A stretch of DNA of 64,000 bases from Roseinatronobacter monicus. Lineage in GTDB: Bacteria > Pseudomonadota > Alphaproteobacteria > Rhodobacterales > Rhodobacteraceae. The translations under genes and the position numbers were made by a program. Below the pieces are notes generated by a model. The model saw nothing but the letters and a program-made list of their open reading frames with translations, did no database searches and had not been told where the DNA came from. Of this stretch, positions 4,942-41,002 are shown piece after piece. Location of the stretch: positions 3,095,001 through 3,159,000 of the forward strand of contig NZ_VFPT01000001.1 of NCBI RefSeq assembly GCF_006716865.1. The letters are read 5' to 3'. Positions within the stretch are counted from its first letter, which is position 1. The number at the start of each line of letters is the position of its first letter.

Positions 4942-4953
4942 GGAAGTGTCCTT

Positions 4954-5922
4954 TCAGGCCGCGTTTGGGTCGGCATGATGCTTGAGGAAATCCTCAAGCT
5001 CTTGGGTTGTGGGCATGGCAGGCGCGCAGCCGACCCGCGCCACCACCATTGCCGCCGCAGCAGAGCCTTGCAGCACAGCCTCGCGCACAGGCAGGCCATC
5101 CGCCAGACCGGCCACAAGCCCGCCCATGAAACTGTCGCCTGCGCCCGTCGGTTTCAGCGCTTCGGTGCGGTAAATGCCGGTTGTGATTTCGCCCTCAGGC
5201 GTGATGGTGATCGCGCCCTTTTCGCCCATCTTGTAGACAGCCAGCCGCGCGCCTTGGGCGACCAGTTCGCGCGCCTTGTCCAGCCCGCGCGCATAGTCAC
5301 CGGCCATGAAGCCGAATTCCACATCATTGCCGACAATCACATCGCACATGGCCCCGGCGCGGGAATAGACCTCTGCCGCCACTTCCGGCGATGGCCATGA
5401 ATAGGGGCGGTAGTCGATATCAAAGATCAGGGGCAGGCTCGCCGCCTTGGCCAGTTCAAACCCCCTGAACGCGGCAGAGCGCGAAGGTTCTGCCGCGAAG
5501 ACTGTGCCTGTAGTGATCAACGCATCATAGCGGCTGTAATCCACCGCCTCGACATCGGCCATCATCATCTCGAAATCAGCCGCCCCGTTGCGGTAGATGA
5601 CCGATTGATGGTCCTCGATCCGGCTCTCCACCACAGCAAGCGAATTGCGCGCCTCGCCGCCCACAGAACGCACATGCGCGCGGCCAATACCGTATTTGTC
5701 CAACTCGTTCAGAGCAAAGCGGCCGATGGCGTCATCCGACACGCAAGTGACAAGGTCCGCGCTGCCCCCAAGCTTGCAGATCGCCACCCCGATATTCGCG
5801 GATGACCCCCCAAGGCAGGCGACGAAATGCGTGGCATCTTCGGTTCTGGTGCCCGGCGGGTCGGGATAAAAATCCATGCCCGCGCGCCCGATGATGACGA
5901 AGCGATTGCCCTTAAGCTGCAT
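4954..5922 (-). CDS. iolC: 5-dehydro-2-deoxygluconokinase
   Basis: A 322-residue PfkB-family kinase, phosphorylating 2-deoxy-5-keto-gluconate in inositol catabolism. CLGGSSANIGVAICKLGG near residue 35 is the substrate-lid motif, and PTGAGDSFMGG carries the catalytic Asp (about residue 263). The start is set at ATG 5922, immediately before MQLKGNRFVIIGR. The longer upstream frame lies inside iolD in another frame and is not used. The iolD stop and this start are separated by one base. Confidence 0.85.
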   Translation of the reverse strand: MQLKGNRFVIIGRAGMDFYPDPPGTRTEDATHFVACLGGSSANIGVAICKLGGSADLVTCVSDDAIGRFALNELDKYGIGRAHVRSVGGEARNSLAVVESRIEDHQSVIYRNGAADFEMMMADVEAVDYSRYDALITTGTVFAAEPSRSAAFRGFELAKAASLPLIFDIDYRPYSWPSPEVAAEVYSRAGAMCDVIVGNDVEFGFMAGDYARGLDKARELVAQGARLAVYKMGEKGAITITPEGEITTGIYRTEALKPTGAGDSFMGGLVAGLADGLPVREAVLQGSAAAAMVVARVGCAPAMPTTQELEDFLKHHADPNAA

Positions 5923-5923
5923 G

Positions 5924-24570: not shown

Positions 24571-25992
24571 TCACAGTCGTGCGCGCAGGGCGTTGCGGTC
24601 GATCTTTGAGTGGTGGCGCTTGTCCATCGGCATGCTGGCCACATGAACGACCCGCGCAATGCCCAACGCGCTTGCGCGGGTTTGCCAGAGTGCCGCTTGT
24701 GCCCTGTCCCCCTCGATCACAAGGCAGGCGGCATCTTGGGCAGCCATCAGCGCGCATTGGCGCACACCGGGCCATTGCCGCGCGGCCACTTCGACCGAAA
24801 ACGGATAGCACATGCGACCGCCGATTTTCACATCCGTGCCCATACGCCCCAGCAACCAAAGCCGGCCTTGCGCATCCAGACGGCCCGCATCGCCTGTGCG
24901 GTGCCAGATAATTGCGCCATCACGGATTTTGTTTTGCGCGTCATGGGCGGGGTCAAGATAGCCGCGGTTCACATGCGCACCGGCAACCTGAATTTCATCC
25001 TTGTGAATGCGCAAGTCTATCCCTGCAACAGGGTGGCCGACCAGAAGCCCCTGCCCCCCGTCCATCGCCGCGCGGTCATCAGATGTTATATAAGTGGCGT
25101 CCAGATGGGCAATCGGCTCCGCCTCGGTCGAGCCATAGACACAACACACGCGCAAATCAGGCCGGACCGCGTGCATCCGGTCAATCAGTTCGGGAAATAC
25201 AGGGCCACCGCCGGTAAAGACGGTATGCAGCGACGCATCTGCCCCTGCCTGCACCAACATTTCGCACAGGGATGGCGGCACAAGTGCGCGGGTGACGCGG
25301 TTCTTGTGCATCCAGTCGCGCAATTGCGCGGGGTCCAGCGCATCAAGGCGCGACATCTTCCAGTTCGGCAACACCGATGTCTGCCCGCTGGCAATATTGA
25401 TCAGCACGAACACGGGAAACGCAACCAGATCGCGCTGGGGCTGCGCATTGTGCAGCAGTGGCGCGATGGCGCTATACTGTGCTGCAAGGAAATCATGGCT
25501 GCGCGGAATGGCTTTTGGTGCGCCAGTTGTGCCCGATGTGAAGGAAATAAGCGCCACATCCGTGCCCGCCGGGGGTGGCATATCGGGGCAGTTTGCGGCC
25601 TGCCGGTGTAGTCGCAGATGGTGCAGCCCCCATAATTGGGGCAACACCCAACGCAACAGCCTATACAGGCCAGAACTGCAAAAGGCACGTGGTCTGGTGA
25701 CGCGCGCGGCATGGCGCAGCCCCGCAAGCCCCAATGCCGGTTCTGGCAACACGGCTGTGGCACCCAATGTCCAGAGTGCGGCCAGCGCGGCATAAAGATC
25801 TGCATCCACAGACATGGCCACCAACACCTTGTCGCCCGCACGAATGCCCTTGCGGTGCCACGCCCCCGCAAAACGCACGCGGCGCGCATCCAGTTCGGCA
25901 AACGTCACCGCGCGCCCCTTGCCATCGACCAGCGCCACCTTGTCGGGGTGGCGCACAACAGCGGCCGCAAAGTCGCGCAGCAGGTCAGACAT
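24571..25992 (-). CDS. AMP-forming acyl-CoA synthetase/OleC-like ligase, last gene of the HMGR operon
   Basis: A 473-residue ANL-superfamily enzyme. The P-loop ISFTSGTTGAPKAIPRSH lies at about 150-167, VFTGGGPVFPELIDRM and CVYGSTEAEPI in the centre, WHRTGDAGRLDAQGRLWLLGR is the hinge, and the C-terminal Lys in KIDRNALRARL is the likely catalytic lysine. It activates a carboxylic acid with ATP. The TGGGPVFPEL/YGSTEAEP pair resembles olefin-pathway OleC proteins, but it is shorter (OleC is about 550). It overlaps the GNAT gene by 8 bases. Confidence 0.72.
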   Translation of the reverse strand: MSDLLRDFAAAVVRHPDKVALVDGKGRAVTFAELDARRVRFAGAWHRKGIRAGDKVLVAMSVDADLYAALAALWTLGATAVLPEPALGLAGLRHAARVTRPRAFCSSGLYRLLRWVLPQLWGLHHLRLHRQAANCPDMPPPAGTDVALISFTSGTTGAPKAIPRSHDFLAAQYSAIAPLLHNAQPQRDLVAFPVFVLINIASGQTSVLPNWKMSRLDALDPAQLRDWMHKNRVTRALVPPSLCEMLVQAGADASLHTVFTGGGPVFPELIDRMHAVRPDLRVCCVYGSTEAEPIAHLDATYITSDDRAAMDGGQGLLVGHPVAGIDLRIHKDEIQVAGAHVNRGYLDPAHDAQNKIRDGAIIWHRTGDAGRLDAQGRLWLLGRMGTDVKIGGRMCYPFSVEVAARQWPGVRQCALMAAQDAACLVIEGDRAQAALWQTRASALGIARVVHVASMPMDKRHHSKIDRNALRARL

Positions 25993-26830
25993 CCCATTTC
26001 AGCCCAAGCAATTCATAGCGGCGAAACACCTGCCCGCCTTCCTGACGGCTACGCGCGGCAGAGCGGTTGTCGTCATGGATCAGCGCGTGGATCATTGTCT
26101 TGTAGCCCATCGCAAGGGCGGCAACATGACAGGCATGCACCATATGCCGCCCCGCACCGGGAATGAGACTGGCATAGGTTTTCAGGATTACGGTTTTCGT
26201 GTCCAGCCCTTCGGCATAGTTCGGGATTGCGAACAAAAAGCCCGCCAATGCCCCATCTGGCCGCCGCGCGAAAAAGATCAATTCGGGCTTTAGCATGGGA
26301 AGAACGGGTTTATACATGTCAACGAACGCAGATTCAGGGATCGGGGCATAAAACGCGTTACCTGCAAATGTCACTGATGACAGGGCAAACACCTCTCGCA
26401 GCATGGCGTCCGGGTCGTCGCCCGCCCATGCCTCGACCGTGAAACCGGCGGGGGCGGGCAATGGCGCGGGGTCGCATATGTCCAAGGGCATTCGCGCCGA
26501 AAAATAGCGCGCCACAGGCTGGAAACCGGCGGCGGCAAAAATCAACGGCTCATGCGGGCGATTGGCCGGTTCCATTAAAAAAGCGGGCGTGCCGTCAGTT
26601 TCGCTGACAAAACGGTAACTGTGCCATGTGTCGCCTGCCATTGGCCCCAACACACGGTCGAACCCCGCATCCCGCACGCGCGCCAGCGCCTGTTGCAACA
26701 AATCCGTGCCCGCCTGTGGCGTCTTGAACGACACGTTGCCAAGCGTCGCGGCGCGCACACCGTCCCAATCCGGCCCGTTCAGATGAAGGGTAAGGGACGC
26801 GCTATCGGTTTTCAGTGTCTCAATCGTCAC
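25985..26830 (-). CDS. GNAT-like acyltransferase
   Basis: A 281-residue protein. The C-terminal half (about 130-275) has the GNAT outline: LIFFARRPDGALAGFLFAIPN as the central strands, TVILKTYASLIPGAGRHMVHACHVAALAMG as the acyl-CoA-binding strand and helix, then IHALIHDDNRSAARS. The N-terminal half resembles a degenerate second GNAT fold (VLGPMAGDTWHSYRFV). The acceptor is unknown. It shares a 4-base overlap with the kinase gene upstream and 8 bases with the ligase gene downstream. Confidence 0.62.
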   Translation of the reverse strand: MTIETLKTDSASLTLHLNGPDWDGVRAATLGNVSFKTPQAGTDLLQQALARVRDAGFDRVLGPMAGDTWHSYRFVSETDGTPAFLMEPANRPHEPLIFAAAGFQPVARYFSARMPLDICDPAPLPAPAGFTVEAWAGDDPDAMLREVFALSSVTFAGNAFYAPIPESAFVDMYKPVLPMLKPELIFFARRPDGALAGFLFAIPNYAEGLDTKTVILKTYASLIPGAGRHMVHACHVAALAMGYKTMIHALIHDDNRSAARSRQEGGQVFRRYELLGLKWDV

Positions 26831-28146
26831 AGGCTTCCTCCGGCTGGGGGGGGTGTGCCGCCCTGATCTATGACCGCAAGGGTATAATAGGCCAGCGGCA
26901 GGATCATGGACAACACTGTCAGCTTCAACACCCGATGCCTGAAAAACATGTCAGGCAGGGCCGCACTGGCCGCAGCGCTTAGGGCCAGACACAGGCAGGC
27001 CAGCACCAGCAACGGGTCCGCCCATAAACTATGCGGCGGGTTCAGCCATGTCACAATCTGGCGGAGCGCCAGCAGCGCCGCCGCGATTACCGGCACCCAG
27101 ACCAGATTGCGCCGCAACGCCAGTGTGGCTAGCCCCATGACCAGCCCCATGGCCGTCAGGCCATAGAACTGCACCGCGTTCCAGCCGATAGCATTGCCAA
27201 GCGCCAGCCAGCCGAAACTGAACAACGCCAGCCCTGCCACCATGTCCAGATCGCCAAAATCATCGCCACCGGGGGATCGCGCGCTGGCCCAGGGATAGGC
27301 CACAAGCACCAGCGCGGGCAGGATGGCGTTTTGCAATTCAACTGACGCCAGTATCAGAAACATCGCCACGACATAGACACGCGCGGCATGGGTCGACAGG
27401 CCAAAGCGCGGGCCAATGATGCGCGACGCAATGATTGCCATCACGAACAGCACGGCAATGGGCAGCAGCTCAAACAGGGTGCTGTTGCTGTGAACCTCCA
27501 GAAAGACCAGCAAGCCAAGCGGCAGAAACAGGTTGTCGAACCCCCGCCAGCTTTGGGCCTCGACCAATGCGCCGAAACCGGCGACCAGCAGGGCAAGTGT
27601 CAAAATGTTCAGGGGTGGTTGGTCCGACAGGCACATCAGGCAAATCAGCGCCACCAGAAGCGTGATGACAAAAAACACCACTGTGCCTTCGACACTTTTG
27701 ACGCCCTGTTCTACCTTGAATCGGCGCGTGCCATAGGCGGTTCCCGCCAGCGCCGCCGCCGCATCGGCCAGCGTCAGCACCGCGATTGGCAGCACATAAA
27801 ACAGCGCCACCCCGTCTGAGAAAAAGAAACAAAGCCCCACCGAAATGGCCAGCAGGAAATCCCCGTAGGACCGGCGATCGACACTGTGCACCGCGTCGCC
27901 CAGACGCCCGGAAAGACGCGGCAGGCGCAGTGCAACCATCATCACCAGTGTCAGCGCGACAATCATGTAAACAGGCCAGCGATCAGGGAAAAGCCACGGC
28001 AACCCCATCGCATAGATACCCGTGCCAACATGCACCAGCTTGCGTTTCACTTCGGCGCTGAACGGCAGGCGGCGCACCAGTGCCATCAACACCAAAAGGG
28101 CTGCAACCGACCCGAACACGATGACCAGTTGCGCCGCCATACTCAC
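26827..28146 (-). CDS. Phytol/dolichol kinase-like integral membrane protein
   Basis: A 439-residue protein with about twelve hydrophobic segments. KRKLVHVGTGIYAMGLPWLF (about 34-53), the DRRSYGDFLLAISVGLCFFF segment and LTLADAAAALAGTAYGTRRF with SVEGTVVFF match the SEC59/VTE5 polyprenol and phytol kinase family. These enzymes use CTP to phosphorylate a prenyl alcohol in the membrane. Family members of this kind are usually 200-300 residues. Here about 200 extra residues of membrane segments follow. The C-terminus ends in TPPPAGGSL. It overlaps both neighbours by 4 bases. Confidence 0.72.
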   Translation of the reverse strand: MSMAAQLVIVFGSVAALLVLMALVRRLPFSAEVKRKLVHVGTGIYAMGLPWLFPDRWPVYMIVALTLVMMVALRLPRLSGRLGDAVHSVDRRSYGDFLLAISVGLCFFFSDGVALFYVLPIAVLTLADAAAALAGTAYGTRRFKVEQGVKSVEGTVVFFVITLLVALICLMCLSDQPPLNILTLALLVAGFGALVEAQSWRGFDNLFLPLGLLVFLEVHSNSTLFELLPIAVLFVMAIIASRIIGPRFGLSTHAARVYVVAMFLILASVELQNAILPALVLVAYPWASARSPGGDDFGDLDMVAGLALFSFGWLALGNAIGWNAVQFYGLTAMGLVMGLATLALRRNLVWVPVIAAALLALRQIVTWLNPPHSLWADPLLVLACLCLALSAAASAALPDMFFRHRVLKLTVLSMILPLAYYTLAVIDQGGTPPPAGGSL

Positions 28147-29276
28147 CCGACAACTTCCTCGATCACGAAATCCGAATAGAAGAACGCCTTGTCACGCGCT
28201 TTCAGGTCATCCTCCAGCGCGCGCAGGCGCATCACGCGTGCAGACAGGGGCGCAGGCACGCGGCGCGGGGCCATCATGTTCCAGTAGACCAGCCGCGCAC
28301 CGGGTGCTGCGGCCCCCAGAATGCTGTCATACACCTGCGCAAAAACGGGCGGGGACATATATTCGAAAATATCCGACAGGTTAAAGCCATGCGCCAATTC
28401 GCCGGTTTTGATAAATGCCTCCAGCGAACCGGGGCGAATTTCAATGCGGGCGCTGCGGTCGCGGATCACGTCAAAATTCTCCGCGCGCCATGCCATTGGC
28501 AGGGCCGCGCCATGCGTGCCCTTGATGATCCAGTGCAGATAGGGGTTTTCCGACGGGTCGGTTTGCACCGCTGCGTGATGGATGCGCCGCGCCACATGCT
28601 GCGCGGGACTGCCATCAACATGGTCAAAAAACGCCTTGTCCCGCCCCATACGGCCCATGACAAAGCGCGAGAAAAAGACATTCAGCAACACCCGCCAGCG
28701 CCATGTGTTGAACCGCGTGTCAAAAAAATCCTGACGCCCCTGCCGGTTGCGCGGCACGAATATGGCGTCACGCGTCGCGCGGGAATGCACGAGCGGCAAA
28801 AACCACGTTCGGAATATACGGAAATAGCGTTCGAACTTGCCCACCCCGCCAGCCCCGAACCGCGCGACATCCGTGGCCTGTGCGTTCCAGAATGCCTGTG
28901 TTTCGGGATCAAGCGCGGCCACCACACGCGCCAGCAGCGCCTTGCGCTGCATGGACGCGCGCGCGCCCATAAGTTCCAGAAATTCCGCATGGGTCAGGGT
29001 CGCATAGGCCGCGATCCGCAGCTTCAGGCAGGCGATCTGCGCAGGCGACAGGTCGACCACCACAATTTTGGCGGGGTCCAGCACCAGCATCGCCAGCGCA
29101 TTATCCCCCGCCGCGCAGATCGACACCAGCGTTCGCCCGCTGCAATCGCCCATTGCTGCCGTCAGGATATCCGCATCTTCCCATAGCTGGGCATAGCGGA
29201 TGTGGTCAAAGGCGGCTTTCGCTTCAATCTCGGAATTCGTCAATATGTCTCTCCACCTCGCCGGTTGCGCCGTCAA
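28143..29276 (-). CDS. DUF3419 family (BtaA-like) SAM-dependent aminocarboxypropyl transferase
   Basis: A 377-residue protein. DHIRYAQLWEDADIL at residues 24-38 and SICAAGDNALAMLVLDPAKIVVVDLSP at 51-77 form the SAM-binding core of DUF3419. YWNMMAPRR at the C-terminal side is also typical. The family founder BtaA moves the 3-amino-3-carboxypropyl group of SAM to diacylglycerol, the first step of betaine lipid. No btaB-like N-methyltransferase gene is seen here, so a different acceptor is likely. The start overlaps the previous gene by 53 bases, and a shorter TTG start is possible. Confidence 0.72.
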   Translation of the reverse strand: MTAQPARWRDILTNSEIEAKAAFDHIRYAQLWEDADILTAAMGDCSGRTLVSICAAGDNALAMLVLDPAKIVVVDLSPAQIACLKLRIAAYATLTHAEFLELMGARASMQRKALLARVVAALDPETQAFWNAQATDVARFGAGGVGKFERYFRIFRTWFLPLVHSRATRDAIFVPRNRQGRQDFFDTRFNTWRWRVLLNVFFSRFVMGRMGRDKAFFDHVDGSPAQHVARRIHHAAVQTDPSENPYLHWIIKGTHGAALPMAWRAENFDVIRDRSARIEIRPGSLEAFIKTGELAHGFNLSDIFEYMSPPVFAQVYDSILGAAAPGARLVYWNMMAPRRVPAPLSARVMRLRALEDDLKARDKAFFYSDFVIEEVVG

Positions 29277-31650
29277 CGGTCAGGGTTTCGCCATCTGCAA
29301 CCCATTGCGTCGCCCCCTTCAACCCCACCACGCAAGGAATGCCCAATTCGCGCGCCACAATGGCCGAATGCGACAACAGCGATCCGCGCTCGACAACAAT
29401 GGCCGACGCGTTCGAGAAAACGGCAATCCAGCCCGGATCAGTATGACGCGCCACAAGGATTTCGCCCGCGCCCAGCGATTGCGTGCGCGGGTCGCGGATG
29501 ACGCGGGCCACCGCTGTCACCCGCCCTGCCGAGCAGCCGGTTGCACTGCGGCGCGCGGACTGGTCTTGCGCCACCGGCGCATCGGCCCAGACGGGCGCAA
29601 TGGCGGGGCCGCGCAATTCAATCCGTTCGGGCGGGTCGGGGCGGTTTGCTGCCGCCGCATCTTCGGCCTTGCGCAAGCTGACCTGCGACTTCAGATCGCC
29701 TGACAGCCCATACCCTTCGACCGCGCCAAGCACTTCTGACGTGATCAGGTAAAACACGTCGCGCGGGCTGTCCAGCAACCCGCGCGCGGCAAATTCACGG
29801 CCCAGCCCCAGAAACACACGGCGCGCATAGCCGAAGATGCGCGTGCGCTCAAACCGCAGGTTTTCGCGGTCGCGCACGCGGTTTTTGGTCCATGAAATCA
29901 GGCCCTTTGCAATCATGTGTTTGAACGGGTTGGGAAAAAGCGCGCGCCAGTCGGGGTCTTTGGCCTTGTGCGTATCATGTGCGCCGCGTTGCGCGCTGGC
30001 CAAAATCGCGGCAAGCAGGCTGGACGGGTCATCGCGCAGTGTCAGGCTTTCAAGTTTCAGCTCTTCTGTGCAGCGATCGCCGAACTTATCAAGATAGCTC
30101 TCGACCTCTCGGCGCAGGTCAGGATGGGGGTCAAGGCCGGCCATCCCGTCCGCCATCAGCGCAGCATCCAGACCGGCGGCGCGGGCCATCTGTCCCATTT
30201 TCATGATGCGCTGCGCGGGTTCTGCCGAAATAATGTCGCCCTGCCCGATCATCACATCGTTATGCAGGGCCAGACCATCCGGCCCCAGCCACCGTTCCAA
30301 CAGGTTGCGCGAGGCACCGAACGCAATCATGCAGAGGAAATCATTGACCAGCGGCGCATCCCAACGATCCAGCAAGGTGCTTTCGATCTTGCGGTATTCC
30401 GCCGCAAGCGCGGTTGGCCCGGCGCGCGTCACGTCAAAGCCGCTGTTCAGCGCGGTATTCAGGCGCGCATAAAACCGGCGGCGCGTGCGCGGCAGCATCA
30501 TCGCCTGCCACACCAACCCTGCGCCCGCGCGCCCCATTCGGGCATATTCAAGAATGCGCGCGCCCCCCTTGGCCGGTGGCGGGCCAATGCTGTCTGTCAC
30601 CTCTCGCGGCATGGGCGTGTCCACGCCCATCATGGTTTCCATATAGCCCCTGTTCAGCGAAAACCCGGGCAACAGCGCCAGCGCGCGGTACCAGTTGACA
30701 AGGTTGTAATACACCCGCCCGTCAACACGGCCCAGCATATTGCCAAACACGGCAGATTGCGCGGCGATTGTGCGGTCGGGCACCCCCAGCAAGGCCACGA
30801 AGGCGCGGTAGACGCGGGCATAGACATGAACCGCAAAGGAATAGGTCAGCGGGCTGACCATACCCGGATAGCTTTCGACAATGTTGGAATTGTCGAAAAT
30901 CGTCAGCGCGGTATCATCATTCAGGGGTGGCAACAGTGGCGTGGTGATGGGGCGCGATTGCAAGATATGCAGCCCGTCATCATCTATTGCCCATTCAATA
31001 TCCTGCGGCGCACCAAACACATCTTCTGCGCGCAGCGCCAATGCGGCAATCGCTTCGGCCTGCGCCGCGTTCAGAACGGCAGGCACTGTGGCACAACGCG
31101 CCGTGGTCCCAATCGCCCAGTCCTCGCCGTCTTCTTCGCCTGAAACCAGACGCTCGCCCAATCCGGCAATCGCCGAGATCACAACGCGGTCGCGCCGTCC
31201 TGTCACGGGGTCGGCGGAAAACGCCACACCCGCCGCGCGCGCATCAATCATGCGCTGGACAATAACCGCTGGCCCCTCAGCCCCGGTTTGTGACTTCAGC
31301 GCGCGGTAAGTGGCCACCGTGTCGGAAAAGCCCGATTGCCAGACCTGTCGCGCCGCATCCTCGACCCCGCCCGCAGGCACATTCAGCAGCGTGTCGAACT
31401 GTCCTGCGTGGCTGTGCGCGGCGCCATCTTCCTGCCGCGCCGAACTGCGCACGGCAAACGGCCCTGCGCCAAGATCCGCCAGCGCGTCGGGCAAGCCCTG
31501 AAGTGGCGTGCCAGTGTCGAACGCGTCGGCGCGAATGACAAAAAACGCAGGCGGTGCAAACCCGTTTTCGGCCAGACGCGACAGGGCCGCCGCCTTGCCG
31601 CCGACATCTTCCACGTTGCGCGCCTGATCCTGCGGAACAATAAACCCCAT
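29224..31650 (-). CDS. PEP synthase/PPDK-like phosphotransferase
   Basis: An 808-residue enzyme with the three-part layout of PEP synthase and rifampin phosphotransferase. An ATP-grasp part comes first (GGKAAALSRLAENGF, FAVRSSARQEDGAAHSHAGQ, ADPVTG and ILQSRPITT). A long central domain follows (about 270-700) without the PEP/pyruvate TIM barrel of true PEP synthase. The C-terminal swivelling domain has the phosphohistidine loop GSLLSHSAIVARELGIPCVVG (His near 761). The lack of the PEP domain suggests phosphoryl transfer to a small molecule. ATG 31650 overlaps the UbiA stop as TGATG. Confidence 0.75.
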   Translation of the reverse strand: MGFIVPQDQARNVEDVGGKAAALSRLAENGFAPPAFFVIRADAFDTGTPLQGLPDALADLGAGPFAVRSSARQEDGAAHSHAGQFDTLLNVPAGGVEDAARQVWQSGFSDTVATYRALKSQTGAEGPAVIVQRMIDARAAGVAFSADPVTGRRDRVVISAIAGLGERLVSGEEDGEDWAIGTTARCATVPAVLNAAQAEAIAALALRAEDVFGAPQDIEWAIDDDGLHILQSRPITTPLLPPLNDDTALTIFDNSNIVESYPGMVSPLTYSFAVHVYARVYRAFVALLGVPDRTIAAQSAVFGNMLGRVDGRVYYNLVNWYRALALLPGFSLNRGYMETMMGVDTPMPREVTDSIGPPPAKGGARILEYARMGRAGAGLVWQAMMLPRTRRRFYARLNTALNSGFDVTRAGPTALAAEYRKIESTLLDRWDAPLVNDFLCMIAFGASRNLLERWLGPDGLALHNDVMIGQGDIISAEPAQRIMKMGQMARAAGLDAALMADGMAGLDPHPDLRREVESYLDKFGDRCTEELKLESLTLRDDPSSLLAAILASAQRGAHDTHKAKDPDWRALFPNPFKHMIAKGLISWTKNRVRDRENLRFERTRIFGYARRVFLGLGREFAARGLLDSPRDVFYLITSEVLGAVEGYGLSGDLKSQVSLRKAEDAAAANRPDPPERIELRGPAIAPVWADAPVAQDQSARRSATGCSAGRVTAVARVIRDPRTQSLGAGEILVARHTDPGWIAVFSNASAIVVERGSLLSHSAIVARELGIPCVVGLKGATQWVADGETLTVDGATGEVERHIDEFRD

Positions 31651-32555
31651 CAGACCATCCTTACAATCAGCGGGGCAAACCCCGCCAGCGCATAGCAGGC
31701 AAAGACCCAAAGCCCTGCAACCGTATCAAGGCGCTTTTGCGCCGCAATAGTGGGGGTCGCCGCATAAGCCGCCGCCGCCCGAAGGCACCACAGCGCCCCC
31801 GCCCCGCCCAGCAATACCGCAACCCAGACCACACCAGTTGCCGCCCCCACACCGACCAGCAAGCCCCACGACACCACGACACATGCAGCCCAGATAAAGG
31901 CGGCCTTTCTTGGCCCCCACAGGCCGGAATAGGTGTCGACCCCGTCAATCTCGTTTTGGGGTGCCCAAAGTTTGCGCCCGATTTCCAGCACACAGCCATT
32001 CACAAACGACAGCGCCAGAAACAGCCCCAGCCAGAATGCGGGCGTGCCTGCGGGCAGCCATTCCATTGCGGTCAAAAACAAGTCAATCAACGGCATGATC
32101 GCCATATGACTGACCAGATACAGCACGGGCCGCGCCTTCAGCCACCTTGGCACGCCAAATTCTGCGGTCATGGCCAGCAGCCACAGCCACACAACGCCAA
32201 GCAGCCACAACAGCGGCGGGTGCCATGCCCATGCAGCAAAGGCCGTCACCGGCAAGGACACCAGCCCCAGTGCCAGCACTGCGCGAAGCGAGATCAGGCC
32301 GCGCGGGATGGGGCGGTCCGGGCGATAGCGTTTGTCATCTTCCAGATCCTTGTATTCATCGCAAACCCGCATCTGGAAAAACAGCAGCATTGCCACAGCA
32401 AAGCCTGCCGCAAATGCGCCCCAGCCCGGCAGGGGCCGACCCGCCATTTCAGCCGAGACACTGATGCTGGCTGCGGAAAAAACCGCCAGCAAGGGCACTG
32501 TCCTGACCAGCGGAAAGCGTTCTTTCTGATAGGTCCACAGCGCCGCAGGTGTCAT
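31650..32555 (-). CDS. UbiA-superfamily prenyltransferase
   Basis: A 301-residue membrane protein with about eight hydrophobic segments. The first Asp-rich motif is CDEYKDLEDD (65-74), followed by YRPDRPIPRGLIS, the classical UbiA sequence after the diphosphate site. The second motif is NEIDGVDTYSG (201-211). It should transfer a prenyl chain from prenyl diphosphate to an acceptor within the membrane. Families with this pattern include quinone, chlorophyll, tocopherol and archaeal lipid synthases. The first Asp-rich motif begins CDEY, not the usual NDYxD, so it is not a standard UbiA or BchG. It shares 4 bases with the HMGR gene. Confidence 0.78.
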   Translation of the reverse strand: MTPAALWTYQKERFPLVRTVPLLAVFSAASISVSAEMAGRPLPGWGAFAAGFAVAMLLFFQMRVCDEYKDLEDDKRYRPDRPIPRGLISLRAVLALGLVSLPVTAFAAWAWHPPLLWLLGVVWLWLLAMTAEFGVPRWLKARPVLYLVSHMAIMPLIDLFLTAMEWLPAGTPAFWLGLFLALSFVNGCVLEIGRKLWAPQNEIDGVDTYSGLWGPRKAAFIWAACVVVSWGLLVGVGAATGVVWVAVLLGGAGALWCLRAAAAYAATPTIAAQKRLDTVAGLWVFACYALAGFAPLIVRMV

Positions 32556-33817
32556 CTGTGCCGCGCCAGATTTTCATGTGCGCGCGTGAAATGCCCCGCC
32601 GCAATCGCCGCCACAATCGAGATTTCACCGCACAGGCAGGTTGCGGCCACCACTTCGGCCAGCGCCGCACCATGGCCCGCGCCCTTCAACCCAAGGATGT
32701 TCAGCCCCGCCGACTGGCTGGGCAGCGATGTGCCCCCGCCAACCGACCCAACTAGAATATTCGGCATGGTCACGCTGCAAAACAGATCATTGCCGCGCGC
32801 TTCCATACGGGTGATGCCCATAGCACTTTCGGCAACGCAGGCGGCATCCTGACCGGTTGCAATGTAGATTGCGGCAAGCCCGTTGGCATAATGCGCCTGT
32901 GCGCCCAACTGCCCTGACAGATGCGCGCCAAGATTGGCCACCTGCCCGTAATCAAGCATGTCCTGAACACGTGTCCCCAAGGTGCGTTCGACCACATCTG
33001 CCTTCAGCGTGACCGACGCACTGACCTTGCGCCCGCGTCCCGTGACCAGCCCCAGAAATGATGCTTTCTTGTCACCGGAAAAATTGCCTTCGATATACCA
33101 CGCCTTCAGGGCAACGGGGCAGCGCGCCACAATATCATCGCACAGGGCATTCGTAGCGATTGTCACCATGTTCTGCCCCGCCGCATCGCCGGTTGTATAG
33201 CGGCAGATCAGGAACACCACGTTATTGTCGATCATCGGCTCCACCGACACCAGTTTGCCGTGCCGTGTGGTGGATTCCGCCGCTGCCTTCAACTGGTCCA
33301 CCTCCGTCACGACCCATTCGACGAACAGCCCCGCATTCAGCAGGTTTTCCAGCACAAAGGCCGGTGTACGGATGACCCCTTCATACAGGATTGCCGTGCT
33401 GATGCCCCCTGATTTCGTGGCGGCATAGGCCCCGCGCGCATAGGAGGCGACGAGTGCGGCTTCGGTGGTGGCCATTGGCACATGGTAATCCCCGTGCGCA
33501 TTCAACCCGTTAATCCGCAAGGGGCCAATAATCCCGACAGGCAGTTTCACAGTTCCGATGAAATTTTCGATATTGGCGTTGAACTGCTCTGGCATGGCCA
33601 TTGTCAGCGGGTCGGCGATTGCATCACGATCCGAAGCGTCGGTGGTGTTGGCCAGTCGGGCCCAGTATTTTGCGACAGAGGCCTGCGTTGCCTTGCGCAC
33701 TGGGCGCAGCGTGGTGAACTGCGCATCGCTTGGCAACATGCGTTCATGCAACGGGGATTGAAAAAATCTTGCCCGAATTCTACTCAGCATGTCTTTGACA
33801 TGGGAAGGAACAGTCAT
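32552..33817 (-). CDS. HMG-CoA reductase, class I-like
   Basis: A 421-residue soluble catalytic domain. Recognisable sites are ENFIG (84-88), PMATTEAALVAS with the catalytic Glu at 119, GDAAGQNM (210-217), DKKAS with the catalytic Lys at about 250-251, GQDAAC with the catalytic Asp at 323, GSVGGGTSLPSQS (357-369), and GHFTRAH near the C-terminus with a catalytic His (409 or 414). It reduces HMG-CoA to mevalonate with NAD(P)H. The full set of active-site residues suggests an active enzyme. It is the first gene of the operon. No other mevalonate-pathway gene is visible in the window. Confidence 0.85.
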   Translation of the reverse strand: MTVPSHVKDMLSRIRARFFQSPLHERMLPSDAQFTTLRPVRKATQASVAKYWARLANTTDASDRDAIADPLTMAMPEQFNANIENFIGTVKLPVGIIGPLRINGLNAHGDYHVPMATTEAALVASYARGAYAATKSGGISTAILYEGVIRTPAFVLENLLNAGLFVEWVVTEVDQLKAAAESTTRHGKLVSVEPMIDNNVVFLICRYTTGDAAGQNMVTIATNALCDDIVARCPVALKAWYIEGNFSGDKKASFLGLVTGRGRKVSASVTLKADVVERTLGTRVQDMLDYGQVANLGAHLSGQLGAQAHYANGLAAIYIATGQDAACVAESAMGITRMEARGNDLFCSVTMPNILVGSVGGGTSLPSQSAGLNILGLKGAGHGAALAEVVAATCLCGEISIVAAIAAGHFTRAHENLARHR

Positions 33818-34053
33818 TTACGCATACCATAGCTGAAGTTGCCCGCGCCAAAACACGCATAGGCAACAATGTGTGTCACCATAAGTCATGAATGGCAACA
33901 ATTGGCAGTGATCGGGTTCTTGCCATTGCCTTGAAACGCGCTGTGCGCGGAGGTCTTCAGCCTTGTGCGGCAGCACCCGCATGGCGAGATATTCAAGACC
34001 AATGCATTTATGCTATAGTTGATCGCTCGCAGGTCGTGAGAGGGTTGGCGGCG
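33818..34053. promoter_or_regulatory. Divergent promoter region of the HMGR operon and the DUF2235 gene
   Basis: 236 bases separate two divergent start codons and must hold the promoter of the seven-gene operon. The part nearest HMGR is relatively AT-rich. I do not see a clear palindromic operator, and no good ribosome-binding site precedes the HMGR ATG, so that start is only moderately certain. Confidence 0.5.
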
Positions 34054-35223
34054 ATGAAACGCATAGTGATCTGTTGCGATGGAACATGGAACCGCCTTGA
34101 CGCCGCGCATGTGACGAATGTCGTGCGTCTGGCCGAAGCGGTGGATAGCCACGCAGATGATGGCATACATCAGATCGTATATTACGACGAAGGGGTCGGG
34201 GCCGGCGCTGCGGTTGTTGGCTGGCTTGACCGGGTGCTGGGGGGCGCTTTTGGATCAGGTCTGATGCTGAAGGTGGAACATGCGTACCGCTTTTTGGTGT
34301 TCAATTATGAACCGGGTGATGAGATTTATATTTTCGGCTTCTCGCGCGGTGCCTTTACCGCGCGGTCCTTGGCCGGTCTGATCCGCAATTGTGGGATTGT
34401 TCAGCAATCTCAGGGGCGTCGTCTGCATCAAGCTGTCGCGTTGTATCGCCAGCGGGGGAAGCGCGGGCACCCGGATTCTGATGTCAGCTGTCGCTTTCGG
34501 GCTGAAATGTCCCCTGCGGTGTATCTGAATGATCGTGAACTGGCGTGGCGAAAGAAGAATATTCCTGACTTCAATCCCGAGAACTGCCTGCCGATACGTC
34601 TGCGCTATCTAGGTGTCTGGGACACGGTCGGTGCACTGGGTGTGCCGAACCACTTTTGGATTTCGGGCCTTTTCAACAAAGGTTCGCGCTTTCATGATGC
34701 CGAGCTGTCAAGCGCTGTTGAAAGTGCGCGACATGCTGTTGCGCTGGATGAACATCGGCGCGCGTATGAGCCCACCGTGTGGAGCAATCTTGATTTGCTG
34801 AATGCAGCAACTGCTTCCGATGATCCGCAGGCGGGGCCTTGGTATCAGCAAAGCTGGTTTCCCGGCGATCACAGCTCGATTGGCGGGGGTGGTGACGTAA
34901 CGGGGCATTCGAGTGCGGCCTTGCTTTGGGTAGCCGAGGGCGCACAGGCCGTCGGGATGAAGTTCCGCGAGGGCGCACTGGATGACGCGCGCAAGCAAGT
35001 GGACCACCGGGCCGCGTTGCGCAGTCACAGCAAGTCCGGATGGCTGGCAAAACTGCTGTCCAGAGCTGCGCGCAAAGGGCCGGCATTGCTTGAAGATGTC
35101 TCTCACCACGCGCGATTGCGGTGGCAAGAGCCGCCGGATAACCTGCCCGAGCGCGCCAAATACAGGCCAGACGCGCTCAAGCGACTGAAGGCACAGCTAG
35201 AGCGCCTTAGCACGCGGGAATAA
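34054..35223 (+). CDS. DUF2235 alpha/beta-hydrolase-like protein
   Basis: A 389-residue protein of the DUF2235 family, the fold shared by Tle1-type phospholipase effectors and many uncharacterised hydrolases. The N-terminal KRIVICCDGTWNR is the family signature, FGFSRGAFTARSLAG is the nucleophile elbow (Ser in GFSRG), and the GVWDTVGALG and WFPGDHSSIGGGG segments carry the remaining active-site residues. ATG 34054 starts immediately before the family signature. No VgrG or immunity gene is adjacent, so a type VI effector role is not supported. Confidence 0.82.
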   Translation: MKRIVICCDGTWNRLDAAHVTNVVRLAEAVDSHADDGIHQIVYYDEGVGAGAAVVGWLDRVLGGAFGSGLMLKVEHAYRFLVFNYEPGDEIYIFGFSRGAFTARSLAGLIRNCGIVQQSQGRRLHQAVALYRQRGKRGHPDSDVSCRFRAEMSPAVYLNDRELAWRKKNIPDFNPENCLPIRLRYLGVWDTVGALGVPNHFWISGLFNKGSRFHDAELSSAVESARHAVALDEHRRAYEPTVWSNLDLLNAATASDDPQAGPWYQQSWFPGDHSSIGGGGDVTGHSSAALLWVAEGAQAVGMKFREGALDDARKQVDHRAALRSHSKSGWLAKLLSRAARKGPALLEDVSHHARLRWQEPPDNLPERAKYRPDALKRLKAQLERLSTRE

Positions 35224-36311: not shown

Positions 36312-38183
36312 CTACCAGGAAAATTGCCGGGCGACAGACAGTCGAATGTCGCGTCCGCGTCTGGGTTCATTGCTGGTCAGACCGCCATTCAAGACATTTC
36401 GATACTGCTTGTTGAGCACGTTATTGACCGCAAGGTGAACTTCCAGCCCCGCCATCGCGCCCTGATCGGGCCGCCACGTGGCAAACAGGTCATTGACGCC
36501 ATAACCGGGGAACGCATCACCGTTTGCGCGCGTGGCCTGGCGCACGAATGTGCCGCGCCAGCCATATTCCAGCGTCTGATCGAAAGCGCGCGCGCCCAAC
36601 TCCAGAACCAGCTCATCTGCCGGGGTGGAATTCAGCCGTTCGCCGCTGGTCTGATCAGTTCCCAGAATGCGCGAATACGCGAATTTCCCGAAAACCGCGT
36701 CGGCGTCATAGCCGCCTTCCAACTCGATCCCGCGGATATGCGCGCGCGCGATATTGGCATATGTCTCCGGAACTGCTGCTCCTGGCCGTTCAATCTTGTC
36801 CGTCACACGGTTGCTAAAGGCCGTCAGTTTGAAATCCAGACTGTCGCCCTCAGCAAAAAGATCGCGCCCACCGTAGGAGAAGCCCGCTTCCAGCGTGCGC
36901 GCGCGCTCTGGCCGCAGGTCCAGCGAGGTGGTCTTGCCTGCCCCAGAGGCAACATCGAACATCTCATCAATGGATGGCGCGCGTTCGGTTTGCGACACGG
37001 ACCCGAACACTGCCCAGTCTTGCGACAACTTGTAGTGCAGCGCCAATGATGCGACCCGCGCGGTGTGGCTGCGCTTCTCGCCATTCACAACTTCGTCTGA
37101 GGGCATCAGCGTAATCCGGTCGGCGCGCAGGCCCAGCACAGCAGTCTGGCGTTCATCCCAGATAAATTCGTTTTGCAAAAACAGCCCATAGCGACGATCT
37201 GTCCCTTCGGGGTGAAAGGAAATCGCACCGGATTCGCGCTGTGCTTTGCGATCCAGATCAGACGCCGCAACCCCGACAGTCAGGTAGTTCTCCCATCCCG
37301 CACCTTGAAAGGTGAACCGGTTTTGCGCCCGCAAAGCCAGTGTACGATATTCGTAGACCGTATCCTCGAACAGCGGGTTGCCGATAAGCGAGGGCATGCC
37401 GGGTTCGGCATTCTTCTGATCGATCAGCGTGCGCGAATAGGTCAGTGCGACGCGACTGTCCAACCAAGGATTGCCGCTGGCAGGATTGGTCCAGAGCAGA
37501 GTTGCCGTGTCATCCTGTGCCTTGCGGTCCACTGTCCCGAACGCGGGCGCAAGCGCATAGGCGGAGTAATTCGCGCCATCCTCGTCACTCAGCCAGCGCA
37601 ACAATGACAGGCTGAGGGTCTGTTCATTGCCATCCCCGAAGCGGTAAGTCCCCTTCAGCAACCCGGATGTGCCGGCCATGCCCGAACCCTCAACCCGCGT
37701 GCCGTCGCCGGATTTGTAATCACCCTCGCGGCGATGGTTCAGCGCGGCCAGCATCTCGAAACTCTCGCCAAAGCGCTGTGCCAGAATGACCGACCCCAGC
37801 GTACCGGACCCGTTGGTATTGCCAGCGGCTTTCACCCGCACTGTGGTGGTTTCGCCCGGTTGCAGAAAATCGGCAGCATCTTTGGTTTCAAATGCGACAA
37901 CACCCCCCAAAGCGCCCGAACCATGCAGCGCAGACGAGGCCGGACCACGCAGGATTTCCACCCGCTTATACAGCTCCGGTTCACCAAAGAACTGGCCCAG
38001 ACGGTAAAGCTCACCGTATTTTTCGGCCCCGTCCACTGTGATGATGATGCGGTTCTGATCCGACGCGGTGCTGCCGATCCCGCGAATGTTGAAGCTTTGC
38101 CCCGTCATGCGGTCGCCACCAAAGGCTGTCGCGCCCGGAACGGTCCGCAGCAGATCGCCCGGCTTTGCGCCTTTTGTGTGGTG
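36312..38183 (-). pseudogene. hmuR: TonB-dependent haem receptor lacking its N-terminus
   Basis: The open frame covers the plug from KPGDLLRTVPGATAF onward (NIRGIG, VEILRGPASSALHGSGALGGVVAFETKDA) and the complete 22-strand barrel to the final RLSVARQFSW, whose terminal aromatic residue is typical. A TGA lies in frame at 38184-38186, upstream of KPGD. No signal peptide or TonB box is found in any frame. The only in-frame ATG (38108) falls inside the plug. Outer-membrane targeting would fail, so this looks like a 5'-truncated gene. It lies downstream of hmuV and in the same direction, 96 bases away. Confidence 0.72.
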
Positions 38184-38279
38184 TCATCGGTATCCCCTTG
38201 TTTTGCTCTTCTGGCTGGCGATACCGCTGGCATTGTGGTCACTGCGCTAATTAACCCTAGCGAAAGAGTCAAGATTAGT

Positions 38280-39068
38280 TCAGGCTATTTCTGCCGACTG
38301 TGGCAGGATAAATGCCGCACCGGGTTCGGGCAGGCTGGAGACGCGCAAACGGCAGCCATAGGCGCGCGACAGGTTCTGATCGGTCAGCACCTCGGCCACC
38401 GCGCCATGTGCAAGAACGCGCCCGTCCAGCATCAGAACCACGCGGTCGGCAAACATGGCCGTCAGGTTCAGGTCATGCATGACCGCCACCACACCCCCGC
38501 CCGCCCGCGCGAAGCGGCGCGCCAGATGCATGACCTGCAACTGATGCCCGATATCAAGGGCTGCGACGGGTTCATCCAGAAACAGCCAGCGCGGAATGCC
38601 CTCCTGAACCGGCTCCCAGACTTGCAACAGCACGCGGGCCAGTTGCGCGCGGGCCTGTTCGCCGCCCGACAATTCCTGAAAAAAGCGCCCACCATAGCCC
38701 GTCAGCCCGACCCGCTCCAAGGCACGGGCGGGCAGTTGCGCGGCATCCGCGCGCAATGCCAGCCGCCCGATCAACCCCAGCCGCACAACCTCATGCACAG
38801 TAAAGGGAAAGGCAAGCTGGCTTGATTGAGGCAGCACCGCGCGCCGTTCGGCCAGCGCATGGGCCGGCAGAGCGCGCATGTCCAGACCATCCAGCGTGAC
38901 GGTACCACGATAGGCCAGATCGCCAGTGATGGCGCGCAACAATGTGGTCTTGCCGGACCCGTTGGGGCCAACGATCACAGTCATCTCGCCCGCTTTTGCG
39001 TGCAAAAAGGCCCTATCCAGCACGGGGTTGCGCCCAAGGCTTACGGAAATCTCGTGTGCATCCAGCAT
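38280..39068 (-). CDS. hmuV: Haem ABC importer, ATP-binding protein
   Basis: A 262-residue ATPase. Walker A is GPNGSGKTT, the signature is LSGGEQARAQLARVL, Walker B is WLFLDEPVAALD, and the switch His is in AVMHDLNL. The start at 39068 (MLDAHEISV) follows hmuU by 7 bases, and the longer frame lies inside hmuU. Length and the HmuV-like LRVSSLPEPGAAFILPQS end fit. It is the fourth gene of hmuSTUV. Confidence 0.85.
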   Translation of the reverse strand: MLDAHEISVSLGRNPVLDRAFLHAKAGEMTVIVGPNGSGKTTLLRAITGDLAYRGTVTLDGLDMRALPAHALAERRAVLPQSSQLAFPFTVHEVVRLGLIGRLALRADAAQLPARALERVGLTGYGGRFFQELSGGEQARAQLARVLLQVWEPVQEGIPRWLFLDEPVAALDIGHQLQVMHLARRFARAGGGVVAVMHDLNLTAMFADRVVLMLDGRVLAHGAVAEVLTDQNLSRAYGCRLRVSSLPEPGAAFILPQSAEIA

Positions 39069-39075
39069 CCCGGCC

Positions 39076-40155
39076 TCACATATCCACGATGCCGCGCCGG
39101 CGCAGCAATATCCACAGGAAGATCGGCCCGCCCAGAACAGCGGTGACAATGCCGATGGGCAGTTCCGCAGGCGCGATAATCAGGCGCGAGATGATGTCGG
39201 CCAGCAAGAGCAACCCCGCGCCCAGAAGTGCCGCCGCAGGCAGCAAGAAGCGATGATCCGGCCCCATGACCAGCCGCAGCAAATGCGGCACGACAATCCC
39301 GATAAAGCCGATCCCGCCCGACACTGCGACCGCAGCGCCCGTTGCCGCAGCGACTGTCAGAATGGCGAAGTTCTTCATCCGCTGCACTGCGATGCCCAGA
39401 TGCGCCGCCGCCCCTTCGCCCAAGGCAAGCCCGTTGAGTGCGCGCGCCAGCAGGGGGGCGGCCAGCAGCGCCAGAACCATGATCGGTGCCGCCGCTGACA
39501 GCTTGGCCCAGCTTGCGCCCGCCAGTGACCCCAGCCCCCAAAAGGTCAGATCGCGCAGTTGCTGGTCGTCCGCGATATAAACCAGAATACCGGTCAATGC
39601 CCCCGACAGCGCGCCCAGCGCAATGCCCGCCAGCAGCATGGTCGCCACCGATGTGCGCCCTGCCCGCGTAGACACGCGGTACAGGATCAGCGTTGTCGCC
39701 CAGCCCCCCAGAAACGCCGCCAGCGGCACCAGATGCATACCTGCAATCGCCAGCAGGGTCGGGGGCAAAAGCGCGCCCAGTACAATCGCCAGCACAGCCC
39801 CCAGACCCGCACCAGCCCCCACACCCACAATGCCCGGATCGGCCAACGGGTTGCGAAACAGTCCTTGCATGACCGCCCCCGATACAGCCAGTGACGCCCC
39901 GACCAGCAGCCCCGTCAGCAAGCGCGGCAGGCGGATGTCGAACAGCACCACGCGTTCACGCACGCTCAGCGCCTCGCCTGTTATCCATTTGCCCAAGACT
40001 TCGGTCAGGGACACGCCCGCAGCCCCAGTGCCCAAGGATGCAACCGAGGCCATAGCGACAAACCCCACCAGCGCCAGTATCGTAACACGCGCGCGGATCG
40101 AACGGTCCCCGGTTGCGGCCTGCGCGCCGCCGCGCTCCATCGGCATGGCCACCAT
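39076..40155 (-). CDS. hmuU: Haem ABC importer, FecCD-type permease
   Basis: A 359-residue permease with about nine to ten hydrophobic segments. RLPRLLTGLLVGASLAVSG, GLFRNPLADPGIVGVGAGAGLGAV and GFIGIVVPHLLRLVMGPDHR are hallmarks of the FecCD family. ATG 40155 begins four bases after the hmuT stop. It imports haem across the inner membrane with HmuV. Confidence 0.85.
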   Translation of the reverse strand: MVAMPMERGGAQAATGDRSIRARVTILALVGFVAMASVASLGTGAAGVSLTEVLGKWITGEALSVRERVVLFDIRLPRLLTGLLVGASLAVSGAVMQGLFRNPLADPGIVGVGAGAGLGAVLAIVLGALLPPTLLAIAGMHLVPLAAFLGGWATTLILYRVSTRAGRTSVATMLLAGIALGALSGALTGILVYIADDQQLRDLTFWGLGSLAGASWAKLSAAAPIMVLALLAAPLLARALNGLALGEGAAAHLGIAVQRMKNFAILTVAAATGAAVAVSGGIGFIGIVVPHLLRLVMGPDHRFLLPAAALLGAGLLLLADIISRLIIAPAELPIGIVTAVLGGPIFLWILLRRRGIVDM

Positions 40156-40159
40156 GCGC

Positions 40160-41002
40160 TCAGCCCTCTTGCTGCGGCGCGGGGTAGAGGGCGCGGTGCA
40201 GATCTTGCGCGGCTTCCGCCGTGCGCGGACCAAAGCCCAGCAGATAGATGCCATTCATGCGCAGCACCGCTGCATTCTCTGCCGCAGGGGTCAGCCCCAG
40301 CGCAGGATGGGCCAGTATTTCGGCATCTGAAAGCGCGTGATCCCCGCCACGGTCCATCATCAGGATCACATCAGGGGCAGCGGCAGTAATCGCCTCGTCG
40401 CTGAGCAGGCGGTAGCCTGCAAAATCGTCAAAGGCATTGGCACCGCCCGCCAGTTCTATCATCGCACTGGCCCCTGTGTCCCGCCCCGCCGCATTGATGC
40501 GACCGCCCTGCGCCGACAGCACGAACATCACCCGCTTGGGCGTTGTCACAGCACCGGTCGCTTCGGACAGGGCGGCGAACTCGGCCTCTAGCTGTGCGAC
40601 CAGCGCGTCACCCGCTTGTACTGCATCGAGGTGCCGGGCGACGGTTTTCACGCGCTCCAGCACCGCAGACGGGCTTGGGTCTTCGGTCACCTGCACAAAC
40701 GGGACCGCGGCTGCCTGCATGATCTGCACAGTCTCGGACGGGCCAGACCCTTCTGAAGCAAGGATCAGGTCAGGGTCCAGCGCCAACAACCCCTCGGGCG
40801 AGAGGGCGCGCATATAGCCGACATCCGGCAGTGCTTCGACCGCGGGGGGGAAGCTGGCGGTTGTGTCGCGCCCGACAAGGCGGTGGTCCTGCCCCAGCGC
40901 ATAGACGATTTCCGCCAACCCACCGCCGACAACGACAACGCGGTCCTGTGCGCTCAGCGGGGTGGCAAGCGCCGCGAGAAGTAGGGTGTATCGCAGCATC
41001 AT
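40160..41002 (-). CDS. hmuT: Periplasmic haem-binding protein
   Basis: A 280-residue protein with a short signal peptide (MMLRYTLLLAALATPLSA). The mature part has the single-helix-linked fold of metal/haem binding proteins (VVVGGGLAEIVYALGQDHRLVGRD, ALSPEGLLALDPDLILAS, GSGPSETVQIMQ). It delivers haem from the outer-membrane receptor to HmuUV. It starts one codon before the end of hmuS or directly after it, within the tight hmuSTUV operon. Confidence 0.85.
   Translation of the reverse strand: MMLRYTLLLAALATPLSAQDRVVVVGGGLAEIVYALGQDHRLVGRDTTASFPPAVEALPDVGYMRALSPEGLLALDPDLILASEGSGPSETVQIMQAAAVPFVQVTEDPSPSAVLERVKTVARHLDAVQAGDALVAQLEAEFAALSEATGAVTTPKRVMFVLSAQGGRINAAGRDTGASAMIELAGGANAFDDFAGYRLLSDEAITAAAPDVILMMDRGGDHALSDAEILAHPALGLTPAAENAAVLRMNGIYLLGFGPRTAEAAQDLHRALYPAPQQEG

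Follow-up and report, generated by a model that had tools for sequence, protein, structure and literature searches.

A conserved seven-gene operon with a divergent HMG-CoA reductase in Roseinatronobacter monicus and other proteobacteria, possibly for a prenylated membrane amino-lipid

Several described systems resemble parts of the locus considered here. In betaine-lipid synthesis by BtaA and BtaB, BtaA, a member of the DUF3419 family, makes diacylglycerol-O-homoserine from S-adenosylmethionine (SAM) (PMC10685587). OleC makes beta-lactones (PMC7064751). In the fungal SidI/SidH/SidF module, an AMP-forming ligase and an acyltransferase act downstream of mevalonate. Here, we analysed a 64,000-nucleotide stretch of the Roseinatronobacter monicus genome (NZ_VFPT01000001.1, positions 3,095,001 to 3,159,000, hereafter the window), which carries seven genes for a hydroxymethylglutaryl-CoA (HMG-CoA) reductase-like enzyme (HMGR), a UbiA-family prenyltransferase, a phosphohistidine dikinase, a DUF3419 protein, a putative membrane kinase, a predicted tandem GNAT acyltransferase and an AMP-forming ligase. 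Every one of these enzymes lies in or near a known superfamily, and for the whole pathway no counterpart was found. In line with the original prediction that no described pathway has this set, none turned up in the literature searched, which left out the bulk of subscription journals and every bioRxiv preprint.

The seven genes are minus-strand open reading frames (ORFs) that fill positions 24571-33817 of the window and, as a check of the ORF coordinates confirmed, overlap at all six junctions. The overlaps are 4 bases between HMGR and UbiA, 1 base between UbiA and the dikinase with an ATG start (61 with the upstream TTG), 20 bases between the dikinase and DUF3419 with the TTG annotated in a Roseinatronobacter plasmid (53 with the first TTG), 4 bases at both the DUF3419/kinase-like and the kinase-like/GNAT junctions, and 8 bases between GNAT and the ligase. 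For gene 3 the ATG at 31650 is the more likely start, and gene 4 likely starts at 29243, as annotated in NZ_CP121116; if the likeliest starts are taken, all overlaps fall between 1 and 20 bases. Thus, the seven overlapping leftward genes of the original prediction are present, with an overlap at every junction, and its sizes (4 bases at most, 53 at one) are slightly off, the values being 4, 1, 20, 4, 4 and 8.

We searched 295 genomes of the family with the HMGR and obtained matches at E 1e-20 or better in 19. In 16 of the 295, R. monicus included, the match is at least 66% identical and is followed by UbiA and the dikinase. The remaining three matches are only 36-40% identical, and the other six genes were unmatched near them, about 1.5 kb on each side having been examined for two of the three. 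When the loci of the 15 family genomes other than R. monicus were extended, 14 contained the full set in unchanged order (in one of these, L069, the HMGR is split over two frames) and the fifteenth ended at a contig edge. A profile of the GNAT protein was also searched against 84,980 species genomes; 140 stretches fitted a pattern, 104 of them encode a relative, and the best 80 were retained. In 72 of these 80 the gene order is complete and unchanged, with all seven on a single strand, and seven loci are interrupted by contig ends; since the search started from the operon's own GNAT and was confined to the top 80 of 104 relatives, looser versions of the gene set could have been missed. The family sample and the 80-locus sample are not independent, because of the 14 HMGR copies that the family loci supplied, 12 recur with identical sequence among the 80. 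The order of the seven genes is far beyond chance, and a search for the set, as the original prediction had proposed, revealed no scattering in the loci examined.

Seven whole proteins were obtained from 54 of the 72 complete loci, the other 18 being dropped by length and stop filters. In these 54 loci, the junction overlaps are present in 46 to 51 cases depending on the junction, and the motif residues of the operon proteins are near invariant. Pairwise distances of any two of the seven proteins correlate at 0.80-0.93, values that shared species history inflates. The shared order and strand (72 of 80 loci, 14 of 15 family loci) and the kept overlaps bear out the view that the operon acts as one unit.

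The hosts are mostly Rhodobacterales, and the operon also occurs in Rhizobium, Devosia, Anderseniella, Dongia, a Sphingomonas metagenome-assembled genome (MAG), Hyphomonadaceae, Marinicaulis and a Granulosicoccaceae MAG; Ruegeria, Roseovarius, Yoonia, Paracoccus and Mameliella are among the other host genera. The Granulosicoccaceae MAG is the one gammaproteobacterial host, and its HMGR falls among rhodobacteral HMGRs in the tree. Together with a plasmid-borne copy in Roseinatronobacter sp. S2 (NZ_CP121116), this placement fits a horizontal spread of the operon, although the MAG contig may be misbinned. R. monicus itself has a truncated second copy on a 244-kb contig (C2, 209553-210536; loci L026 and L050, 14347-15536), which covers residues 97-421 of HMGR, at 97% identity, plus UbiA up to residue 69. 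This copy lies close to several transposase-like ORFs, and no further operon gene was matched within the 20 kb examined.

The first enzyme shares the fold family and the catalytic tetrad of class I HMGRs of the mevalonate pathway. The HMG-CoA_red domain (PF00368) scores 364.6 bits against a cut-off of 27, while the TIGR00533 equivalog score of 317.4 stays below its cut-off of 441.8. Residues were mapped through an alignment to the human chain and a wider alignment, with Glu559, Lys691, Asp767, His866, Ser684 and Lys735 in human numbering. The R. monicus protein retains the tetrad as E84, K250, D324 and H414; in the 73 distinct operon copies tabulated (85 copies minus 12 duplicates), the catalytic Lys, Asp and His are kept in all and the Glu in 72; the remaining copy has no letter at that position. 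Ser684 and Lys735 are residues of the HMG pocket (PMC7503714). Unlike the mevalonate-pathway enzymes, all 73 operon copies have Glu at the Ser684 position (E243 in R. monicus), and in place of Lys735 there is Ala in 71 copies (A294 in R. monicus) and Ser in two.

To place these changes, relatives outside the operon were compared. Lone HMGRs of a gammaproteobacterial genus (f191), which we take to be Vibrio, have Asp (seven of eight) or Glu (one of eight) at the Ser684 position. Among 16 other class I relatives, this position is Ser in 11, Ala in two and Glu in three, and 11 of the 16 also lack Lys735, so that loss of the lysine is common to other proteobacterial HMGRs. The invariant Glu is therefore the sharper mark, though not a unique one. 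A tree of 64 rows sets the operon HMGRs apart on one side of a branch with support 92/83 (below the star threshold), which recurs in 95% of bootstrap trees; the lone f191 HMGRs are next to them, and the branch that joins the two groups has support 100/99. The lone clade (L028-L035, L051 and L070) is about 50-53% identical to the operon HMGR, and the other six genes are not nearby. The pocket changes point to an altered substrate, without amounting to proof.

In addition, R. monicus differs from organisms with a mevalonate pathway in its gene content. HMG-CoA synthase was unmatched in its genome (listed as 100% complete), and its single GHMP kinase is IspE of the methylerythritol phosphate (MEP) route. 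The classical mevalonate route has three GHMP kinases. We checked 22 operon genomes, namely R. monicus, 13 of the 15 family genomes and eight hosts chosen for spread: HMG-CoA synthase was matched in none, and GHMP kinases gave one match in 18 genomes and two in four. With no HMG-CoA synthase and IspE as the sole GHMP kinase, the R. monicus HMGR feeds no mevalonate pathway. The original prediction that no other mevalonate gene is present thus extends from the window to the genome for the genes sought, and the recommended check for a complete pathway or for mevalonate kinases found nothing but IspE. That the enzyme supplies an isoprenoid mevalonate pathway encoded elsewhere, as its homology alone would suggest, is refuted for R. 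monicus at the sensitivity of these searches, and is exceedingly improbable overall.

Another use of mevalonate is conceivable. HMGR could make it from leucine-derived HMG-CoA, the ligase could activate it and the GNAT could attach it to an amine, much as the fungal enzymes SidI and SidF handle mevalonyl or anhydromevalonyl groups (PMC3709128). The catalytic tetrad is intact, and leucine is the obvious source since HMG-CoA synthase is absent. An HMG-CoA lyase above cut-off was found in 16 of the 22 genomes and methylcrotonyl-CoA carboxylase matches in 19, and in R. monicus a single gene run holds both the lyase and the carboxylase subunits, so HMG-CoA can come from leucine in most of these genomes. 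However, the Glu at the Ser684 position and the loss of Lys735 speak against this route, and three genomes (G534, G403, listed as 94% complete, and G935, which has no completeness figure) show neither HMG-CoA synthase, nor an above-cut-off HMG-CoA lyase, nor a methylcrotonyl-CoA carboxylase match. Moreover, the fungal module includes the hydratase SidH, which has no like among the seven genes, and the bacterial operon has added prenyl and SAM enzymes. We consider mevalonyl transfer unlikely. The mevalonate formation implied by the original prediction is not secured, given the two pocket residues replaced in every operon copy and the three of 22 genomes without HMG-CoA source genes; with Ser684 changed to Glu and Lys735 lost, mevalonate is not a safe product. 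The public annotation of these proteins as hydroxymethylglutaryl-CoA reductase invites a reading as mevalonate synthesis, and the pocket residues and missing pathway genes argue against assuming so.

UbiA matches PF01040 with 45 bits (cut-off 34.2), and in all 54 loci its first acidic motif DExxDxxxD (DEYKDLEDD in R. monicus) keeps D66, E67, D70 and D74. The dikinase has the PPDK_N and PEP-utilizers domains and lacks the phosphoenolpyruvate (PEP)-binding barrel in Pfam, an architecture shared with rifampin phosphotransferase (RPH) and PigC. Its nearest solved structures, 5fbs and 5hv2, are listed as phosphoenolpyruvate synthase and are presumably rifampin phosphotransferases; H781, which we take to be the phospho-accepting histidine, is kept in 53 of 54 loci, with one gap. 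Unlike those enzymes, the operon dikinase misses all equivalog cut-offs (229/999, 245/1300 and 284/1350 for the RPH, PigC and RedH models). Distant relatives of the dikinase were noted on two Streptomyces plasmids (L186, 4669-10616, and L187, 6415-10812) beside AfsA-like and isoprenylcysteine methyltransferase-like genes, possibly in signal-type clusters.

The DUF3419 protein (PF11899, 189.2 bits) is the sole member of its family found in the R. monicus genome. Its kinship with BtaA, the homoserine-lipid enzyme (PMC10685587), raises the possibility of a variant betaine or homoserine lipid, in which DUF3419 would act on diacylglycerol and the other genes would modify an ordinary glycerolipid. 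The two systems have in common a DUF3419 enzyme, SAM as donor and a membrane lipid, the last being proposed here for the operon. However, no BtaB-like methyltransferase occurs among the seven conserved genes or the shared flank families, the places where it was sought, six further conserved enzymes accompany DUF3419, and UbiA, the kinase-like protein and HMGR have no role in a betaine-lipid pathway, which makes this variant rather improbable.

Genes 5 and 6 gave no Pfam match. The N-terminal half of gene 5 bears the motifs RKLVH, DAAAALAG and KSVEG, which are conserved across loci and which we regard as phytol/dolichol-kinase-like; the protein is 30-36% identical, over part of its length only, to proteins of 212-228 aa that bear these motifs, and some of its homologues are annotated as phytol, dolichol or polyprenol kinase. 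Like UbiA, it is polytopic, so two of the seven enzymes are. Judged from its predicted fold, gene 6 is a tandem GNAT. The ligase scores 142 bits with PF00501 and, below cut-off, 277 bits with PRK09274; its C-terminal lysine motif is conserved, with K463 in 53 of 54 loci and one gap. The original assignments of a SAM-dependent DUF3419 family (here of BtaA type), a dikinase without the PEP domain, and families for acid activation and acylation are all supported.

One of the named models closest to the ligase is OleC; this would suit a diffusible natural product or signal, such as a beta-lactone (the OleC product; PMC7064751) or an acylated amino acid, instead of a membrane lipid. The Streptomyces plasmid clusters with dikinase relatives and AfsA-like genes, one of which also has a cytochrome P450, the patchy spread (16 of 295 family genomes), the plasmid copy and the ABC-transporter ATPases near 23 of the 80 loci would agree with such a product. 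The ligase, however, misses the OleC cut-offs widely (150/900 and 145/850 bits), OleA, OleB and OleD are absent among the conserved genes, the ATPases are neither orthologous nor fixed in position, and the core includes two membrane enzymes. A diffusible product is therefore improbable to us, at about the level of mevalonyl transfer.

With two polytopic enzymes, families related to prenyl chemistry and a head-group enzyme of the BtaA type, the set speaks for a prenylated amino-lipid that resides in the membrane. We tentatively propose that the operon encodes one pathway for such a lipid, which would carry a SAM-derived aminocarboxypropyl group and an N-acyl group added by the ligase and GNAT, with hydroxylation and sulfation in some species; this is a reading we hold possible at somewhat less than even chances, with all reactions, their order and the product deduced from family membership. 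The HMGR-like enzyme would reduce HMG-CoA or a closely related CoA thioester to a primary alcohol, and the dikinase would phosphorylate a hydroxyl through its mobile histidine domain. The kinase-like membrane protein may phosphorylate a prenol, and UbiA would move a prenyl chain to an acceptor in the membrane. The DUF3419 enzyme might then transfer the 3-amino-3-carboxypropyl group of SAM to a hydroxyl and so form, like BtaA, a homoserine-ether head group; finally, the ligase would activate an acid and the tandem GNAT would acylate the new amine. The order of these steps is a guess. In some species a linked P450 and a sulfotransferase could hydroxylate and sulfate the product. Still more tentative is the broader proposal of a new class of bacterial membrane meroterpenoid amino-lipids, made by a horizontally spread operon with an HMGR-like enzyme repurposed to another acyl thioester and with optional sulfation by the P450-sulfotransferase pair. 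If true, a lipid class has been overlooked in culturable marine and soil bacteria, and one of the best studied enzyme families has a new HMG-CoA-reductase branch with a changed substrate.

The optional step draws on genes that adjoin the operon in some of the loci. Of the 69 loci with at least 2300 bases upstream of HMGR, 17 have a sulfotransferase (PF13469) and a P450 (PF00067) there in divergent orientation; unlike these, L154 (12260-14637) has both after the ligase and co-directional. The pair thus adjoins the operon in 18 of 80 loci, both genes being present in each, with identities to the L057 pair of 45-100% for the P450 and 62-100% for the sulfotransferase. The nearest models of this P450 are albaflavenone monooxygenase and pentalenene oxygenase, both terpene oxygenases, and all are below cut-off. 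It was matched in seven of 25 operon genomes, by coordinates always at the operon locus. Five further loci have a distant P450 only (23-28% identity) and no sulfotransferase. In four of them it belongs to a second family, 79-88% identical to the L083 member, on the same strand directly after the ligase in L082 (12269-13654) and L083 (12413-13807) or directly before HMGR in L131 (1590-2960) and L134 (1578-2960). The mycobacterial cyp128/stf3 pair, a P450 beside a sulfotransferase, reportedly decorates a prenylated quinone (sulfomenaquinone), a membrane molecule; unlike that pair, ours is found in some loci only. No other flank family was linked at at least 45% identity in more than six of the 80 loci, and the lack of a shared transporter or regulator agrees with a product retained in the membrane.

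Several points weigh against the proposed amino-lipid pathway, besides the inflation of the distance correlations. No operon enzyme has a close characterised relative. The kinase assignment of gene 5 has motifs and annotation names as its basis, and the predicted model (predicted local distance difference test score 87.5) gave no significant fold match. The second acidic region of UbiA reads ExxRK...E in the 54 loci, which looks atypical against the canonical form, and the ligase is nearest to OleC-type enzymes, makers of beta-lactones rather than amides. In the MAG locus L147, which is truncated on the 5' side, the ligase is missing: an unrelated convergent gene follows GNAT (4278-6560) and no ligase occurs in the 8.7 kb visible downstream. 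The R. monicus genome matches neither P450 family, the search for the second having had no positive control. Finally, the ABC-transporter ATPases in the flanks of 23 of the 80 loci, at varied places and on varied strands with a median pair identity of 34%, are probably unrelated to the operon and still leave room for export.

Table 1. The seven operon genes in the window, in order of transcription
Gene	Product	Length	Position	Strand	Basis
1	Divergent class I HMG-CoA reductase	421 aa	32552..33817	-	PF00368, 364.6 bits
2	UbiA-family membrane prenyltransferase	301 aa	31650..32555	-	PF01040, 45 bits; motif DEYKDLEDD
3	RPH/PigC-type phosphohistidine dikinase without PEP barrel	828 aa from TTG	29224..31710	-	PPDK_N and PEP-utilizers
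4	DUF3419 (BtaA-family) SAM-dependent transferase	377 aa from first TTG	28143..29276	-	PF11899, 189.2 bits
5	Polytopic membrane protein, putative kinase	439 aa	26827..28146	-	Phytol/dolichol-kinase-like motifs in N-terminal half
6	Tandem GNAT acyltransferase	281 aa	25985..26830	-	Predicted fold
7	AMP-forming acyl ligase, PRK09274/OleC neighbourhood	473 aa	24571..25992	-	PF00501, 142 bits

In R. monicus, the divergent neighbour of the operon (33892-35223 of the window) encodes a protein with a phospholipase domain like that of Tle1 of type VI secretion systems (PF09994, 270 bits). Further on, positions 36312-40254 hold a gene of the TonB-dependent heme receptor family (TIGR01785) followed by ABC transporter-like ORFs, probably for heme uptake.

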